64,000 nt of DNA, from NCBI GenBank assembly GCA_020248265.1, contig JADCHX010000019.1, positions 1 to 64,000 of the forward strand, written 5' to 3'. The notes below the pieces were generated by a model. That model did no database searches and was not told where the DNA came from. It worked only from the letters and a program-made list of their open reading frames with translations. A program made the translations under genes and the position numbers. Positions 22,536 through 33,082 of the stretch are shown one piece after another. Each line of letters opens with the position of its first letter. Position 1 is the stretch's first letter. Origin of the DNA: Rhodocyclaceae bacterium (GTDB lineage: Bacteria > Pseudomonadota > Gammaproteobacteria > Burkholderiales > CAIKXV01).

Positions 22536-24152
22536 CTAGTCCTCGGCGACCACGCGGTTCTTGCCGGCCTCCTTGGCACGGTACATCGCCTGGTCGGCTC
22601 GCCTGACCACATCGGCTTCCGATTCCCCGCGACGCAGCTGCACCACGCCTGCGCTGAACGTGATCAGCAGCCTTTCGTTGTTGGCCAGGAAGAACTGCCT
22701 GGTCAGTTCGCGCTGCAACCGCTCGATCGCGACCCTGCCCGCATCGAGCGTTGTCTCCGGCAGCAGCACGACGAACTCCTCGCCGCCATAGCGTCCGATG
22801 GTGTCGCTCGGACGCAGCAGCGCCTTGGCGACCGTCACCAGGTGCACCAGGGCTTCGTCGCCAGCGCTGTGTCCGTGCGTATCGTTCAGCTTCTTGAAGT
22901 TGTCCAGGTCGATCACCGACACGCAGAGTGCGCTGCCGTAGCGCTCGGCCCGCGAGGCCTCCCGGGTCAGGGCTTCGTTCAGCCCGTGCCGGTTCAGGCT
23001 GCCGGTCAGCGCATCCTCGCGCACCTTCTCGCTGATCTCCTCCAGTTCGGTCTCGAGCTGTCGGATCTTCGATTCGGCCGCTTCCGCCTGGCGACGTGCG
23101 GCCGTGACCTCATCGTGCGAGCGAAGGGTATCTCGCTGCATGTCGCGCATGTCGCCCATCAACCCGTCGAGTACATCCTTCAGGCTGCCGATGTCCTCGA
23201 TACGCTCGATGCGCTCGGCATGGACGCCGATCTTCTCGTGGTACACGGCGGTGCTGTCGGACATCTCGCCGAGCCGCTCGATGAAGATGCTGAACATGTC
23301 CTTCAGCGTGCTCTTGGCATCGGCAATGCTGTGCTTGAGCGCGCCCTGGCGCAGGATGATCTCGCGGAAGCGGGCCTGCGCATCGGTCAGCAGTTCCGGG
23401 GTCGGAGGCCGCGCCATCAACTGGCGCATTACCTCCACCTGCCCGCCGATCCACTGGTCGTCATCGACCAGTTCACCGATGTTGTCGATGAGCAGCCGGA
23501 CCAGGCCCATCAGTTCCGGAACCATCCTGGCGTCGAGGCCGCGTGCGCCGGCCGTGCCCTTCCAGAATGCATCGAGGCGCGTCGCAAGCTGGGCGCACGC
23601 CTCGGTGGAATCGGCCGACGCGGCGAGATCGGCAAGAGCGACCAGTTCCGCATTGAGCGAAGGATCGATGACGAAACGGGGTGCGACGTCATTGCGCAAC
23701 ACCTCGGCGAGGAGGCGGCGCAGGGTCTCGACCGAGGACAGCGGTGTGCCAACCGCGTCCAGTCGAGCCAGCGCACCGGCCGCCAGCGGCATGGCCGGCG
23801 CGGCGGCGGGATCGCCGGCCGAGGCCTCTCGCAGCGCGAGGATTTCCGCCCCGAAAGCCTTCCAGTTCCGGCTGACCAGCGCGCGCTGCAGGCGGGCCAC
23901 AGGCTCCTTCAATGCCGGATCCGTGCGCGGCAGATCGCGCAACGCGCCAAGCATCGGCTCTAGTGTGCCGTCCGCGTGCTGATTGTCGGTGCCCGAAATT
24001 TCCTCGTAGACACGCTGGTAGTTGTCAGGTGTCGGCGCGAGTTTGCGCACCGCCAGCATGCGCAGCGTTTCGCGGGCGAAATCGGCGGGACTCTTGCCGG
24101 TGGGTGCCGCCGGGCCGACAGGCCCGGCGACCGCCGGGTTGACACTCTGCAT
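22536..24152 (-). CDS. Diguanylate cyclase (GGDEF domain)
   Basis: 538 residues, cytoplasmic, with no signal peptide or membrane segment. Residues 1-330 are a helical region of a type often fused to GGDEF in betaproteobacteria (LAPTPDNYQRVYEEISG near 37-55). A coiled coil (QAEAAESKIRQLETELEEISEKV) leads into the GGDEF domain at about 375-535. The active-site loop is GGEEF, so catalysis of c-di-GMP synthesis is expected. An RxxD inhibitory site (RPSD) stands five residues before it. There is no EAL domain. It lies between the flgB promoter and flgA, transcribed toward flgB. Control of the motile/sessile switch is the natural inference but is not shown by sequence. Confidence 0.92.
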   Translation of the reverse strand: MQSVNPAVAGPVGPAAPTGKSPADFARETLRMLAVRKLAPTPDNYQRVYEEISGTDNQHADGTLEPMLGALRDLPRTDPALKEPVARLQRALVSRNWKAFGAEILALREASAGDPAAAPAMPLAAGALARLDAVGTPLSSVETLRRLLAEVLRNDVAPRFVIDPSLNAELVALADLAASADSTEACAQLATRLDAFWKGTAGARGLDARMVPELMGLVRLLIDNIGELVDDDQWIGGQVEVMRQLMARPPTPELLTDAQARFREIILRQGALKHSIADAKSTLKDMFSIFIERLGEMSDSTAVYHEKIGVHAERIERIEDIGSLKDVLDGLMGDMRDMQRDTLRSHDEVTAARRQAEAAESKIRQLETELEEISEKVREDALTGSLNRHGLNEALTREASRAERYGSALCVSVIDLDNFKKLNDTHGHSAGDEALVHLVTVAKALLRPSDTIGRYGGEEFVVLLPETTLDAGRVAIERLQRELTRQFFLANNERLLITFSAGVVQLRRGESEADVVRRADQAMYRAKEAGKNRVVAED

Positions 24153-27683: not shown

Positions 27684-28406
27684 TCACGCGTTCTGCGTCC
27701 ACTCCTTCATCCGTGTACGCAGCCGGGCCACCGCCTGACTGTGGAGTTGACAGATGCGCGACTCACTGACGCCCAGGACCTGGCCGATCTCCTTCAGGTT
27801 CAGCTCTTTTTCGTAGTAGAGGCCCATCACCAGCTTCTCGCGCTCGGGGAGGTTGCTGATCGCGTTGACGAGCATCTGGCGGAAGCCCTTGTCCTCGATG
27901 ATCGCAAGCGGGTTGGACTGATTGTCTGCGAGGAAGAAGTCGAAGAAGTCATTGTCATCGGACTCCTGGAAATCCTCGTAGTGCAGCAACTGCGATCCAC
28001 GGGCGTCGCTCAGCATGTGCTGGTAGTCGGAGAGCGGCACGTTCATCTCGTCGGCCAGCTCGGTCTCGTTGGGCTGGCGACCGAACTTCTGCTCGAGCTT
28101 CGCTACCGCGGCCTCGATCTTGCGAAGGTTCTTGCGGACGTTGCGCGGCAGCCAGTCGGCATGGCGCAGCTCGTCGAGCATGGAGCCCCGGATGCGCTGC
28201 ACAGCATACGTTTCGAACTGCGCGCCCTGCGTGCTGTCGAAGTTGTCCGAGGCATCCAGCAGCCCTATCAGGCCAGCCTGGATGAGGTCGTCGACATCGA
28301 CGCTGGCTGGCAGCCGGGTCATGAAGTGGTAGGCGATCCGCTTAACCAGCGGTGCCATCTCCTTGACGATGGCATCCTTGTCGTCTATCGAGGCAATCGG
28401 GGGCAT
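27684..28406 (-). CDS. fliA: Flagellar sigma factor FliA (sigma-28)
   Basis: 240 residues. Region 2 (DVDDLIQAGLIGLLDASDNFD, FETYAVQRIRGSMLDELRHADWLPR), region 3 (QKFGRQPNETELADEM) and region 4 (LPEREKLVMGLYYEKELNLKEIGQVLGVSESRICQLHSQA) are all present. It directs RNA polymerase to late flagellar genes and is held by FlgM. Encoded between flhG and motC, the arrangement seen with polar flagella. Confidence 0.96.
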   Translation of the reverse strand: MPPIASIDDKDAIVKEMAPLVKRIAYHFMTRLPASVDVDDLIQAGLIGLLDASDNFDSTQGAQFETYAVQRIRGSMLDELRHADWLPRNVRKNLRKIEAAVAKLEQKFGRQPNETELADEMNVPLSDYQHMLSDARGSQLLHYEDFQESDDNDFFDFFLADNQSNPLAIIEDKGFRQMLVNAISNLPEREKLVMGLYYEKELNLKEIGQVLGVSESRICQLHSQAVARLRTRMKEWTQNA

Positions 28407-28430: not shown

Positions 28431-29444
28431 TTACCGCGATACTAGTGCGGTTCGGCCCGGCGCGCCGAACGGCGACAGTTTCTGGGACGGGCTGGGGGTC
28501 GAGTCGTACGACGGGTTGCGGGGCGTTTTGCGTTCTACGACAGCCCCCGCTTCTGCCCTCGCATTCTGCGCCGGATCAACGGCTCGCGCCGTCTCGCCGA
28601 CCAGCAGGGCCTGCCAGGCCTGTTCCGGTGCGCTTGGCAGCGGCACCGGGATGTCGATCCGTTCGGCCAGCATCGCACTGGCGGCGGCAGCGCAGCTTCC
28701 CGGGAAGACCTCGGCGAGCGGGCGATGGAGGCGTTCGGCGCGTGGCACCGTCGGATCGACCGGCACGGCGCCGGCATAGTCCACCTGCACCTGCAGGAAG
28801 CGGCGTGCGGTCTGTGCCACCTTCTGCCACGCCGCCTCCGCCGTACCGGCATCGTTGGCACGTGCCATCCACCACAGGTACCGCTGCTGCCCGACCTCGA
28901 GGGCCAGCATCTTCAGCGCGGCATAGGCCGCGGTCACCGAACGCTGGACCGTGGTGGATCCGAGCAGGACGGTACCGGCTTGCGCCGCGGCCGGCCACCA
29001 GCGCTCCACCCGGTCGGCAGGCACGTCGAGCAGTACGCAATCGAAGCGCACGGCAAGATCGGACAGGGTACGGGCGACGGCGGCCCCGGCTGCCGGGTCG
29101 ACCGCTGCGGGTAGGCGGGCAGGGCCGAGCCTGGCGGCCGGCACCCAGGTCACGCCGCCGGCAGCATGCAGCAGCACCTCGTCGAGTCGGCGCTGGCCGG
29201 ACAGCGCCTCGGCCAGGTCACCGCGCGGAAACAGCCCGAACCAGCCAGCGCCACTGCGTAACTGCGGCTGTGCGTCGACCACCAGCACGGCATGGCCGCG
29301 CCGCGCCATCGCGCCCGCCGTCGCGGCGACCAGCGCGGTCTGTCCGATCCCGGCATCGCCACCGATGAACAGCGCACTGCGCAGCGTCGATCCGCCCAGC
29401 AGGCGGCGCAGGCTCGAGGCCTGATCATCGCCCGGGCCGATCAT
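28431..29444 (-). CDS. flhG: FlhG/FleN-like MinD-family protein with degenerate P-loop
   Basis: 337 residues, located between flhF and fliA exactly where flhG (fleN/ylxH) belongs. The MinD-type deviant Walker A (GKGGxGKT) reads GDAGIGQT at residues 29-36: the signature lysine is Asp30 and the catalytic lysine is Gln35. VLVVDAQPQ (Asp57) and LLDVPAD keep the rest of the fold recognisable, the latter replacing DTxAG. The last 45 residues are low-complexity and Ser/Pro-rich. Normal FlhG restrains flagellar number through ATP-dependent dimerisation with FlhF and an enhancer-binding protein. This copy may not hydrolyse ATP. Identity rests mainly on position plus fold. Confidence 0.8.
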   Translation of the reverse strand: MIGPGDDQASSLRRLLGGSTLRSALFIGGDAGIGQTALVAATAGAMARRGHAVLVVDAQPQLRSGAGWFGLFPRGDLAEALSGQRRLDEVLLHAAGGVTWVPAARLGPARLPAAVDPAAGAAVARTLSDLAVRFDCVLLDVPADRVERWWPAAAQAGTVLLGSTTVQRSVTAAYAALKMLALEVGQQRYLWWMARANDAGTAEAAWQKVAQTARRFLQVQVDYAGAVPVDPTVPRAERLHRPLAEVFPGSCAAAASAMLAERIDIPVPLPSAPEQAWQALLVGETARAVDPAQNARAEAGAVVERKTPRNPSYDSTPSPSQKLSPFGAPGRTALVSR

Positions 29445-29498: not shown

Positions 29499-30959
29499 TC
29501 ACGCACCGGAGCCTCCGCTGGCGGCAACCAGGGCGAACTCGTCGCTGGCCGGGGTAAACGGGTTGGCGGCCTCACGACCGCGCAGCGCGCGATCGATCAG
29601 GTAGAGCGGATTGGGCAGGTGCAGGTCTTCCGGCACGCGCTGGCCATTGGTCACGAAGCACACCGGCAGCCGGTGGCGCAGCACTACATCGAGCACGCCG
29701 CCCAGCGACACCGCCTCGTCGATCTTGGTCAGGATGCAACCGTCGAGCCCTCCCCCCGCATAGCGCGTCGCGACGTCCTCCAGCGTGCTGCCGGCGGAAG
29801 CGGCCGACAGCAGCAGCAGCCGCCGTACGCCGCGGCCCTCGCCGGACAGCAACGCAGCCTGCTCGGCAAGCCGGCGATCGCGCTGGCTCATGCCTACGGT
29901 ATCGATCAGCGTAAGGTGGCGCGCCGCCAGGTCGCCCAGCGTCATCTGCAGTTCGGGTTCGTCGCGCACCGCGATCACCGGGACACCGAGAATGCGCCCA
30001 TAGATGCGCAGTTGGTCGAGAGCGCCGATCCGGAAGCCGTCGGTGGTCAGCAGCGCGGCGCTGGACGCCCCACGCGCGAGCACGCAGCGCGCAGCCAGCT
30101 TGGCGACCGTCGTGGTCTTGCCGACACCGGTCGGTCCGACCAGCGCAAACACGCCGCCCTGTTCGCAGGGGTCGACCGGCTGCAGCAGCGTCTTCAGCCG
30201 GTCGAACAGCAGGGCGCGCACCTGCCGCCAGGCAGTGTCGACCGGCGTATCGGGTACCGGGACGCCGCGCACGGGCGTCCCGGCCGTGTCGGGTTCCGTG
30301 GCATGGTGTCGGCTGACCGCCTCGGCGAGGTCGCGCGCGAGCAGCGTGCTGAAGCCAGCCGCAAGCAGCCGCCGCATCACTTCGGTCTCGACCGGCGAAC
30401 GCCGTGACCGCTCGCCCCAGGCAAACCCGGCCAGCTGATGCTCGACCAGCGAGCGCAGCGAGCGGACCTCGGCGGCGATCTCGGTGATCGCACCGGGGTC
30501 TGCGGCGCTGCGCGCCGCGGCCGCCGGCCGCGCGACTGCCGGTGCCGGTGCCGGCTCGGGCGCAGGCGATGCCATCGGCACGGCTGGCGCTGCAGGCGCC
30601 GCAGCCGCCGGACCGGGCGCCACCGAGCCGCGCGCGCCGGCCGGCACCTGCAGCGGCGGCCACGGTGCCGCCGGCGGCGCGGCGCGGCGCACGACATCGG
30701 GGAGATCCGGATCGTCCGCGAGCGCGGCCTGGGTATAGGCATCGATCGCCGAACGCCGGAGCGGCTCGACCTCGGTCCGGGGCGGGAACGGTGCGGGCAG
30801 CATCGCCGGCTCGGCGCCGGATTCGATCATCGCCACCAGTTCGACGCCGCCCGAGGGCAGCCGCCGGTTGGACAGGATCAGCGCATCGGCGCCCAGCGCA
30901 TCGCGTACTTCGCGCAAGGCATCGCGGGTCGACTGGGCCTGGAAACGCCGGACGATCAT
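29499..30959 (-). CDS. flhF: Flagellar biosynthesis GTPase FlhF
   Basis: 486 residues. The N-terminal B domain starts MIVRRFQAQSTRDALREVRDALG. An Ala/Pro-rich linker (about 90-150) and the N domain follow, then the SRP-type G domain: P-loop GPTGVGKTTTVAKLA (about 285), TTDGFRIGA, DTVGMSQRD and LTKIDEA. Active-site residues look intact, unlike the neighbouring FlhG. It places the flagellum at the cell pole. The ATG overlaps the flhA stop (ATGA, 30956-30959), so translation is coupled. Confidence 0.95.
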   Translation of the reverse strand: MIVRRFQAQSTRDALREVRDALGADALILSNRRLPSGGVELVAMIESGAEPAMLPAPFPPRTEVEPLRRSAIDAYTQAALADDPDLPDVVRRAAPPAAPWPPLQVPAGARGSVAPGPAAAAPAAPAVPMASPAPEPAPAPAVARPAAAARSAADPGAITEIAAEVRSLRSLVEHQLAGFAWGERSRRSPVETEVMRRLLAAGFSTLLARDLAEAVSRHHATEPDTAGTPVRGVPVPDTPVDTAWRQVRALLFDRLKTLLQPVDPCEQGGVFALVGPTGVGKTTTVAKLAARCVLARGASSAALLTTDGFRIGALDQLRIYGRILGVPVIAVRDEPELQMTLGDLAARHLTLIDTVGMSQRDRRLAEQAALLSGEGRGVRRLLLLSAASAGSTLEDVATRYAGGGLDGCILTKIDEAVSLGGVLDVVLRHRLPVCFVTNGQRVPEDLHLPNPLYLIDRALRGREAANPFTPASDEFALVAASGGSGA

Positions 30960-33082
30960 CCCCGTCCTCCGAGCACGGCAACCACGCGGATGGTCTTGCT
31001 GTCAGGGATTTCCGAGTGCGAAATCACCTTGAGCTGGGGAACGGCACGCTTCAGGAACCGCATCAGCAGGGCTCGCAGCGCCGGCGCGACCAGCAGCACG
31101 GCCGGTTGTCCCGACTGTTCCTGGGTCTGGGCGAGTACCGCCGCCTGGCGCAGCAGGTTCTCGGCGAGCGAAGGCTCCAGGCCGGCGCCGTCGGCCTGCC
31201 GGTCGGCCTTGTCGCCGGCGCGTCCCTGGGTCATCTGGGTCAGCATCTGCTCGAGTGTGGGGTCGAGCGCGATTACCGGCAACTCCCCCGCGCCCGGGAA
31301 CACCGACTGCATGATCGCGCGCCCCAGCGCGATGCGCACATGGCTGGTAAGTTCCTCGGCATCCTGCGTCTTCGCGCCGTGTTCGGCCAGCGACTCGATG
31401 ATCGTGCGCATGTCGCGGATATGGACACCGTCGGACAGCAGGTTCTGCAGAACGCGCTGCACGACCGTGAGGTTCAGCACCCGTGGCACGAGGTCTTCCA
31501 CCAGCTTGGGGGAATCCTTTGCGATGTGGTCGAGCAGCGCCTGAGTCTCTTCACGGCCGAGCAGTTCGTGCGCATTCGACTGGATCATGTTCGACAGGTG
31601 GGTCGCCACCACCGTCCCGGCGTCGACCACCGTGTAGCCGAGGCTCTGCGCCTGGTCGCGCTGGCCGGCATCGATCCAGGTGGCTGGCAGACCGAATGCA
31701 GGATCCTTCGTGGCCGTGCCCTGCAGGTTGCCCAGTACCCGCCCGGGATTGATCGCCAGGAACATGCCGGGGAACACTTCGCCGGTACCGGCATCGACGC
31801 CCTTGAGAAGGATCCGGTAGGCATTGGGCCGCAGCTCGAGGTTGTCCCTGATGTGCACCGCGGGCACCAGGAAGCCGAGGTCCTGCGCGACCTTCTTGCG
31901 GATGCCGCGGATGCGCTTGAGCAGTTCACCGTCCTGGGAGCGGTCGACCAGCGGGATCAGCCGATAGCCGACTTCCAGGCCGAGCATGTCGACCGGCACC
32001 ACGTCGTTCCAGCCGACCTCGGCTGGCTCCGCCCTTGGCGGCGGCGGCGGGGGAGGCAACGCCGCCGCCTGCTGCTGCTTCTGCGCGGTGTACCAGCCGA
32101 TCCAGCCGAGACCCCCGGCGATCGCGAGAAAGGCCAGGTTGGGCATGCCAGGAATCAGGCCGACCAGCCCGATCATGCCGGCGGTGATGTACATCACCTG
32201 CGGCCGGTTGAACATCTGGCCGATGAACTGGTTGGACAGGTCCTGCTCGCTGCCGGCGCGGCTGACCACGATGCCGGCGGCCGTCGAGATCACCAGGGCC
32301 GGAATCTGCGCAACGAGGCCGTCGCCGATGGTCAGCAGCACGTAGGTCTCGGTCGCATCGCCGAAACCCATGCCATGCTGGAGCATGCCGATCAGGAGCC
32401 CGCCGACGATGTTGATCACGACGATCAGGATGCCGGCGATCGCATCGCCGCGGACGAACTTCGACGCACCGTCCATCGACCCGTAGAAATCGGCTTCGGC
32501 GGCGATCGCCTGGCGCCGCGCGCGCGCCTCGTCCTCGCGGATCAGCCCGGCATTCAGGTCGGCGTCGATCGCCATCTGCTTGCCCGGCATCGCATCGAGC
32601 GTGAAGCGTGCCGCAACCTCGGCGATGCGGCCTGCACCCTTGGTGATCACCACGAAATTGATCACGACCAGGATGATGAACACGATCAGGCCGACCGCGT
32701 AGTTGCCGCCGATCAGGAAGTGGCCGAAGGCCTCGATCACCTGGCCGGCGGCATCCGGGCCGGTGTGGCCTTCGAGCAGGATGACCCGGGTGGAGGCGAC
32801 GTTGAGCGACAGGCGCAGCAGCGTGGTGACCAGCAGGATGGTCGGGAACACCGAAAACTCGAGCGGCTTCAGCGTGTACAGCGCGACCAGCAGCACGATC
32901 ACCGACAGTGCGATGTTGAACGTGAACAGCAGGTCGAGCAGGAGCGTGGGCAGCGGCAGGACCATCATCGCGAGCACGAGGATGATCAGCATGGGCGCCG
33001 CGGCGCGCGTCCACTGCGAGCTTGCGGGCTGGCCGCCCGGCAGGGTCAAGGCCCCGCCCGGGCCTGGCGGCAGGGCGCTCAT
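30956..33082 (-). CDS. flhA: Flagellar export gate protein FlhA
   Basis: 708 residues. About eight membrane helices lie in the N-terminal half (LIILVLAMMVLPLPTLLLDLLFTFNIALSV onward), with the conserved FHIPEP segment GRIAEVAARFTLDAMPGKQMAIDADLNAGLI. A Pro-rich linker (PPPPPPPRAEP, about 345) leads to the cytoplasmic ring domain. It is the main export-gate subunit of the type III flagellar secretion system. It overlaps both neighbours by four bases (flhB upstream, flhF downstream). Confidence 0.97.
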   Translation of the reverse strand: MSALPPGPGGALTLPGGQPASSQWTRAAAPMLIILVLAMMVLPLPTLLLDLLFTFNIALSVIVLLVALYTLKPLEFSVFPTILLVTTLLRLSLNVASTRVILLEGHTGPDAAGQVIEAFGHFLIGGNYAVGLIVFIILVVINFVVITKGAGRIAEVAARFTLDAMPGKQMAIDADLNAGLIREDEARARRQAIAAEADFYGSMDGASKFVRGDAIAGILIVVINIVGGLLIGMLQHGMGFGDATETYVLLTIGDGLVAQIPALVISTAAGIVVSRAGSEQDLSNQFIGQMFNRPQVMYITAGMIGLVGLIPGMPNLAFLAIAGGLGWIGWYTAQKQQQAAALPPPPPPPRAEPAEVGWNDVVPVDMLGLEVGYRLIPLVDRSQDGELLKRIRGIRKKVAQDLGFLVPAVHIRDNLELRPNAYRILLKGVDAGTGEVFPGMFLAINPGRVLGNLQGTATKDPAFGLPATWIDAGQRDQAQSLGYTVVDAGTVVATHLSNMIQSNAHELLGREETQALLDHIAKDSPKLVEDLVPRVLNLTVVQRVLQNLLSDGVHIRDMRTIIESLAEHGAKTQDAEELTSHVRIALGRAIMQSVFPGAGELPVIALDPTLEQMLTQMTQGRAGDKADRQADGAGLEPSLAENLLRQAAVLAQTQEQSGQPAVLLVAPALRALLMRFLKRAVPQLKVISHSEIPDSKTIRVVAVLGGRG

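Follow-up and report, generated by a model that had tools for sequence, protein, structure and literature searches.

Current models of flagellar number control center on the ATP-dependent dimerization of FlhG, and hyperflagellation results when the Walker A motif of Vibrio FlhG is mutated (PMC7226244). A study of Shewanella FlhG (PMC11236974) describes a single site shared by the C-ring protein FliM, which is bound without nucleotide, and the regulator FlrA, which is bound only by the ATP dimer. In Geobacillus FlhG (GtFlhG), binding of the C-ring protein FliY depends critically on Lys177, on Phe215, and on an arginine whose number is given both as 277 and as 207; this binding is independent of nucleotide, and its site overlaps that of GpsB (PMC12327844). 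According to a 2025 review (PMC12826062), the FlhF GTPase is activated by a glutamine of the "enhancer helix," which serves as a co-catalytic residue, and virtually nothing is known of the action of FlhG on master regulators outside the FlrA/FleQ systems. No published account of an ATPase-dead FlhG was found in the open-licence literature.

The window, that is, the whole 64,000-nucleotide stretch of DNA analyzed here, encodes a protein that is, as judged from its sequence, an FlhG without a recognizable ATP site. With the gammaproteobacterial FlhG/FleN proteins (Pseudomonas aeruginosa FleN, 5j1j, 7ejw, and 8p53; Shewanella and Vibrio FlhG) it has in common the place of its gene after flhF, the SIMIBI/MinD fold, the DQAxxLR enhancer helix, and the DAYAxxK helix. 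Unlike them, it has neither the Walker A lysines nor the acidic set of switches I and II, the C-terminal membrane helix region appears to be replaced in its genus, and a search with PF06490 gave no match to FleQ in its genome. With the Geobacillus/Bacillus FlhG (4rz2) it shares the enhancer helix and the Lys177/Phe215 surface, and that protein binds FliY without nucleotide. Bacillus FlhG, however, retains ATP-dependent dimerization and binds GpsB with ATP, which would be impossible for the window FlhG if its site is dead. The C-ring partner in the present system is assumed, as Shewanella-type FlhG binds FliM and Bacillus-type FlhG binds FliY.

The flhG gene of the window and its product

The gene lies directly downstream of flhF, between it and fliA, in a flhBAFG-fliA run (Table 1). 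A sequence-only reading of this DNA had described a deviant Walker A motif, GDAGIGQT, from which both lysines were lost, a DVPAD sequence in place of the DTxAG of switch II, and an adjoining FlhF with an intact G domain, all of which hold at the positions listed. The deviant Walker A pattern xKGGxGK[ST] is absent from the protein, with Asp30 at the place of the signature lysine and Gln35 at that of the P-loop lysine, and the second aspartate of switch I is replaced by Gln59. ATP binding, ATP hydrolysis, and the ATP-dependent dimer are predicted to be absent, and weak phosphate binding is conceivable given that G29, G32, G34, and T36 of the loop are retained. The DQASSLR sequence at residues 7–13 matches the DQAxxLR pattern of the enhancer helix.

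Table 1. Positions in the window of flhG, its neighbors, and the sequence elements of FlhG
Feature	Position	Strand	Remarks
flhG	28431..29444	(-)	337 aa, ATG start; FlhG/FleN homologue without nucleotide site, as judged from sequence
flhF	29499..30959	(-)	486 aa; PF00448 1.2e-32, TIGR03499 above cut-off; GTPase site GPTGVGKTTT intact
fliA (sigma-28)	27684..28406	(-)	
flhA	30956..33082	(-)	PF00771 2.1e-276
Enhancer helix DQASSLRRL, residues 7-15	29400..29426	(-)	FlhF GTPase-activating element by homology; Gln8 = co-catalytic residue
Degenerate deviant Walker A GGDAGIGQT, residues 28-36	29337..29363	(-)	
Switch I remnant D57-A58-Q59	29268..29276	(-)	DAD in nearly all controls
Switch II / Walker B remnant DVPAD, residues 140-144	29013..29027	(-)	Controls D[TSN]xAG
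Helix QRSVTAAYAALKMLALEV with Y174 and K178, residues 167-184	28893..28946	(-)	K178 = GtFlhG Lys177 equivalent
R214-R215-F216-L217	28794..28805	(-)	F216 = GtFlhG Phe215 equivalent, same FliY/GpsB-binding site
Tail, mostly disordered by prediction, residues 285-337	28434..28592	(-)	Apparently replaces C-terminal membrane-targeting helix region

Among proteins of solved structure, those most closely related to it are Geobacillus FlhG and P. aeruginosa FleN, with FleN 5j1j the nearest (E 1.2e-25). An AlphaFold2 model built from 51 sequences (mean pLDDT 84.5, pTM 0.81) retains the SIMIBI fold, with a helix at residues 8–16 and lower certainty at residues 1–20 and in the tail beyond 285, and the top Foldseek matches to this model are FleN-AMPPNP (5j1j) and GtFlhG (4rz2), at a target TM-score of about 0.8. 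The fold is thus predicted by the model to persist despite loss of the ATP site. Residue equivalences were taken from a profile alignment to 4rz2, with a tag offset of 8 subtracted, in which Lys178, Phe216, and Lys208 of the window protein correspond to Lys177, Phe215, and Arg207 of GtFlhG, respectively. At the C terminus, where a membrane-targeting amphipathic helix would lie, control proteins have helices of the FFVERLI type; the window protein has a tail that is modeled mostly with low confidence. The last FlhG residues, RTALVSR (window 28434–28480), are kept in congeners behind a variable linker; their conservation could reflect a short functional peptide or an overlap with a fliA signal.

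Congeners from separate assemblies carry GDAGIGQT, GDAGVGQT, or GDSGIGQT, encoded by codons that differ synonymously at many places, and the most distant of them (L009) carries SASSALGQT. Identical residues encoded by differing synonymous codons in separately assembled genomes dispose of a read error and, more generally, of a sequencing or assembly artifact, the probability of which is negligible. Close relatives likewise offer no normal P-loop, as the congeners share the motif or have another broken one. A normal FlhG copy elsewhere in the genome was also ruled out, as the other matches are MinD/ParA-like and score no more than 54 bits, compared with 317 bits for the window gene.

The ATP site in Burkholderiales and beyond

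How far the erosion of the ATP site extends was surveyed in the order Burkholderiales, in the broad GTDB sense. Because selection by FlhG similarity was to be avoided, 300 genomes of the order were screened for FlhF, and 80 loci that encode it, about one per genus, were pooled with relatives found earlier and with a later FlhF-anchored set. Most of the 126 aligned FlhG sequences were thus picked by position beside flhF. FlhG is present in 108 of the first 110 loci and was not recognized after an intact flhF in the other two (L046 and L095). The canonical KGGxGK[ST] occurs in none of the 126 sequences. GK[ST] survives in about 17 (a count from which four matches outside the P-loop were excluded), often as SGRxGVGKT with arginine at the place of the signature lysine, and some of these members may still bind nucleotide. 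Other variants are very diverse, including GQT, GTT, GVT, GAT, GRS, GCS, and loops without any glycine. The sequence-only reading had confined the change to "this lineage," a restriction that does not survive this order-wide pattern.

GKGGxGKT is intact in all 30 FlhG proteins sampled elsewhere in the class, outside this order, together with a D.D switch I and a switch II of the D[TSN]xAG type. In a scan of named genomes, the canonical motif is absent from Sterolibacterium, Methylovorus, Tepidiphilus, Sulfuritalea, Nitrosomonas, Propionivibrio, Roseateles, and Comamonas and is kept by nearly all Vibrionales, Alteromonadales, Chromatiales, Bacillota, Spirochaetota, Myxococcota, and Campylobacterota. 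The named genomes also show that the order belongs with the betaproteobacteria. The exceptions outside the order are the Halomonadaceae, one planctomycete, and one metagenome-assembled genome (MAG) labeled Moraxellaceae that is perhaps mis-binned. In the planctomycete, an Isosphaeraceae MAG (L247), FlhG reads GAKGGVGTST and has the enhancer helix; this may be a further independent loss of the P-loop lysine.

When the other orders are used to root an FlhF tree, the GK[ST] state must have changed at least 11 times. Barring any regain of the lysine, the tree contains 19 clades in which it is lost throughout, and the window genus belongs to a clade of this kind with 15 sampled members. The tree was built by a quick method and many of its branches are weak, so these counts of changes and clades are approximate. 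As reconstructed from these sequences, loss of the ATP site is a mosaic, repeated many times across the order. One congener of the window organism (L175, G004:C137) has a second flhF-flhG-fliA set in mirror image, in which FlhG has an intact GKGGVGKTT without the enhancer helix and the adjoining FlhF has GPSGAGKTLAA; ownership of this set is unsure, the MAG having 4% contamination.

Docking elements and natural minimal forms

Other parts of the protein are strongly constrained. Among the 126 FlhG proteins of the order, Gln8 and Leu12 of the enhancer helix are invariant, Ala9 and Arg13 are each found in 123, and Asp7 is found in 121. The next best conserved residues are those at the Lys178 position (lysine in 121 and arginine in 5) and Tyr174 (121/126), both kept at levels far above the rest of the domain. 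Because the position of GtFlhG Arg207 is occupied by Lys208 in the window protein and mostly by asparagine in the order, the C-ring site is only partly conserved. The FliM of the window genome retains LSQDEVDALL.

The same elements recur in naturally shortened forms. Two species of one genus, g20 (L068 and L149, the genome of one being a single contig), carry an open frame of 133 residues after flhF. Its matches to the FlhG profile cover positions 10–28 and then 170–234; it consists of the enhancer helix and a DAYARIKRI module, and about 140 positions of the nucleotide-binding domain are absent. In the gammaproteobacterium Vreelandella (L213), a 190-residue frame combines DQAAGLRKW with a Y..LLK helix module, and in Kushneria (L215) a frame of 155 residues has DQASGLRQW and no clear K-helix. 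The reduction in Halomonadaceae is apparently separate from that in Burkholderiales. The window protein resembles the mini-FlhG of g20 and the Vreelandella protein in pairing an enhancer helix with a C-terminal K-helix module without a P-loop; these delete most of the nucleotide-binding domain, whereas the window protein is predicted to retain the whole fold.

Master regulators and the role of FlhG

FleQ was sought with PF06490, for which the positive controls Aliivibrio, Thiodiazotropha, Neptuniibacter, and Marinobacterium score 55–113 bits. Frames of about 500 codons reach at least 38 bits in 26 of the 30 genomes of the class with an intact P-loop, an imperfect threshold in that the other four score lower; none of 80 genomes of the order reaches it, the best scoring 34 bits. 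By the same search, no convincing FleQ turned up in Vreelandella, Kushneria, or Halomonas, in which FlhC scores about 290 bits. FlhDC as a common cause was rejected: FlhC is strong in 38 of the 80 genomes of the order and absent or weak in the others, including the window genus, although a broken or altered motif is found throughout. A missing FleQ therefore fits better than FlhDC as the common factor. The window genome (G000) yielded no FleQ and no strong FlhC, its only FlhC-like match being one of 45 bits.

The sequence-only reading had offered a nucleotide-free FlhG as either a fixed partner of FlhF or an anti-activator. The invariant helix and the intact FlhF favor the fixed partner; the anti-activator is unsupported, as the window genome and the 79 other genomes of the order that were searched have no FleQ above the threshold. 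The preferred interpretation, to which we give a probability of roughly two in three, is that the window FlhG acts as a nucleotide-independent adaptor coupling C-ring binding to activation of the FlhF GTPase, with the ATP-gated FleQ arm lost. FlhG would bind FliM/FliN via the K178 helix and then present the enhancer helix to FlhF, which would hydrolyze GTP and release FliG, allowing completion of the C-ring; the whole sequence would run without an ATP-driven cycle of monomer-dimer exchange and membrane association. In the published partner switch, one arm is ATP-gated and consists of the binding of FlrA/FleQ by the ATP dimer; this arm is proposed to have decayed because that partner is absent, and any limit on flagellar number would come from FliM/FlhF stoichiometry or from transcription, not from ATP-gated anti-activation. 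Extended to Burkholderiales and, apparently separately, to Halomonadaceae, with decay of the ATP cycle after loss of FleQ/FlrA and flagellar placement achieved without the ATP switch, the proposal is favored only slightly. As no FlhG was recognized after flhF in two loci, the adaptor would not be universal.

The best-kept part of the protein, the enhancer helix, is also what would be expected if FlhG served only as the activator of the FlhF GTPase, the remaining domain being a passive carrier or solubility scaffold with no role at the C-ring, and Kushneria and some others do retain the helix without a clear K-helix. This is nevertheless an unlikely account of the window protein, as lysine or arginine at position 178 in every sequence of the order and the near constancy of Tyr174 would be difficult to reconcile with a passive domain, and the 133-residue proteins kept the K-helix module when the nucleotide half was deleted. 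Less probable still is an FlhG in which other residues stand in for the lysines and which continues to bind nucleotide and to run through a modified cycle. The persistence of the glycine-rich loop and T36, the near constancy of GDAGIGQT within the genus despite many synonymous changes, and the presence of SGRxGVGKT in a basal group agree with such binding, but the aspartates and glycines of switches I and II are lost as well, the loop glycines are missing from many relatives, the region is deleted in two species, and Vibrio FlhG loses function when its Walker A motif is mutated (PMC7226244).

That flhG is decaying and functionless, with number control handed to something else as the sequence-only reading had also entertained, would fit the two loci without a recognizable FlhG and its rate of change, about twice that of FlhF or more (pairwise dN/dS of 0.20–0.36 for FlhG compared with 0.08–0.17 for the FlhF NG domain). 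These ratios and the intact frames rule out a pseudogene and indicate that flhG is under purifying selection, yet faster evolving than flhF; together with the invariant helix and the retention of frame and place beside flhF in nearly all loci, they make functionless decay very improbable.

Burkholderiales include polar, tufted, and peritrichous members. If FlhG persists without an ATP site throughout the order, the part of its function that concerns FlhF and the C-ring would not need the ATP cycle, and the order would represent a natural experiment separating the two roles of FlhG, with the 133-residue protein as a ready-made minimal form. These flhG genes should also, as a caution, not be annotated as ATPases. 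Elsewhere in the flagellar cluster of the window, between flgB and flgA, a gene at 22536–24152 encodes a protein with a GGDEF-like C-terminal sequence (GGEEF).
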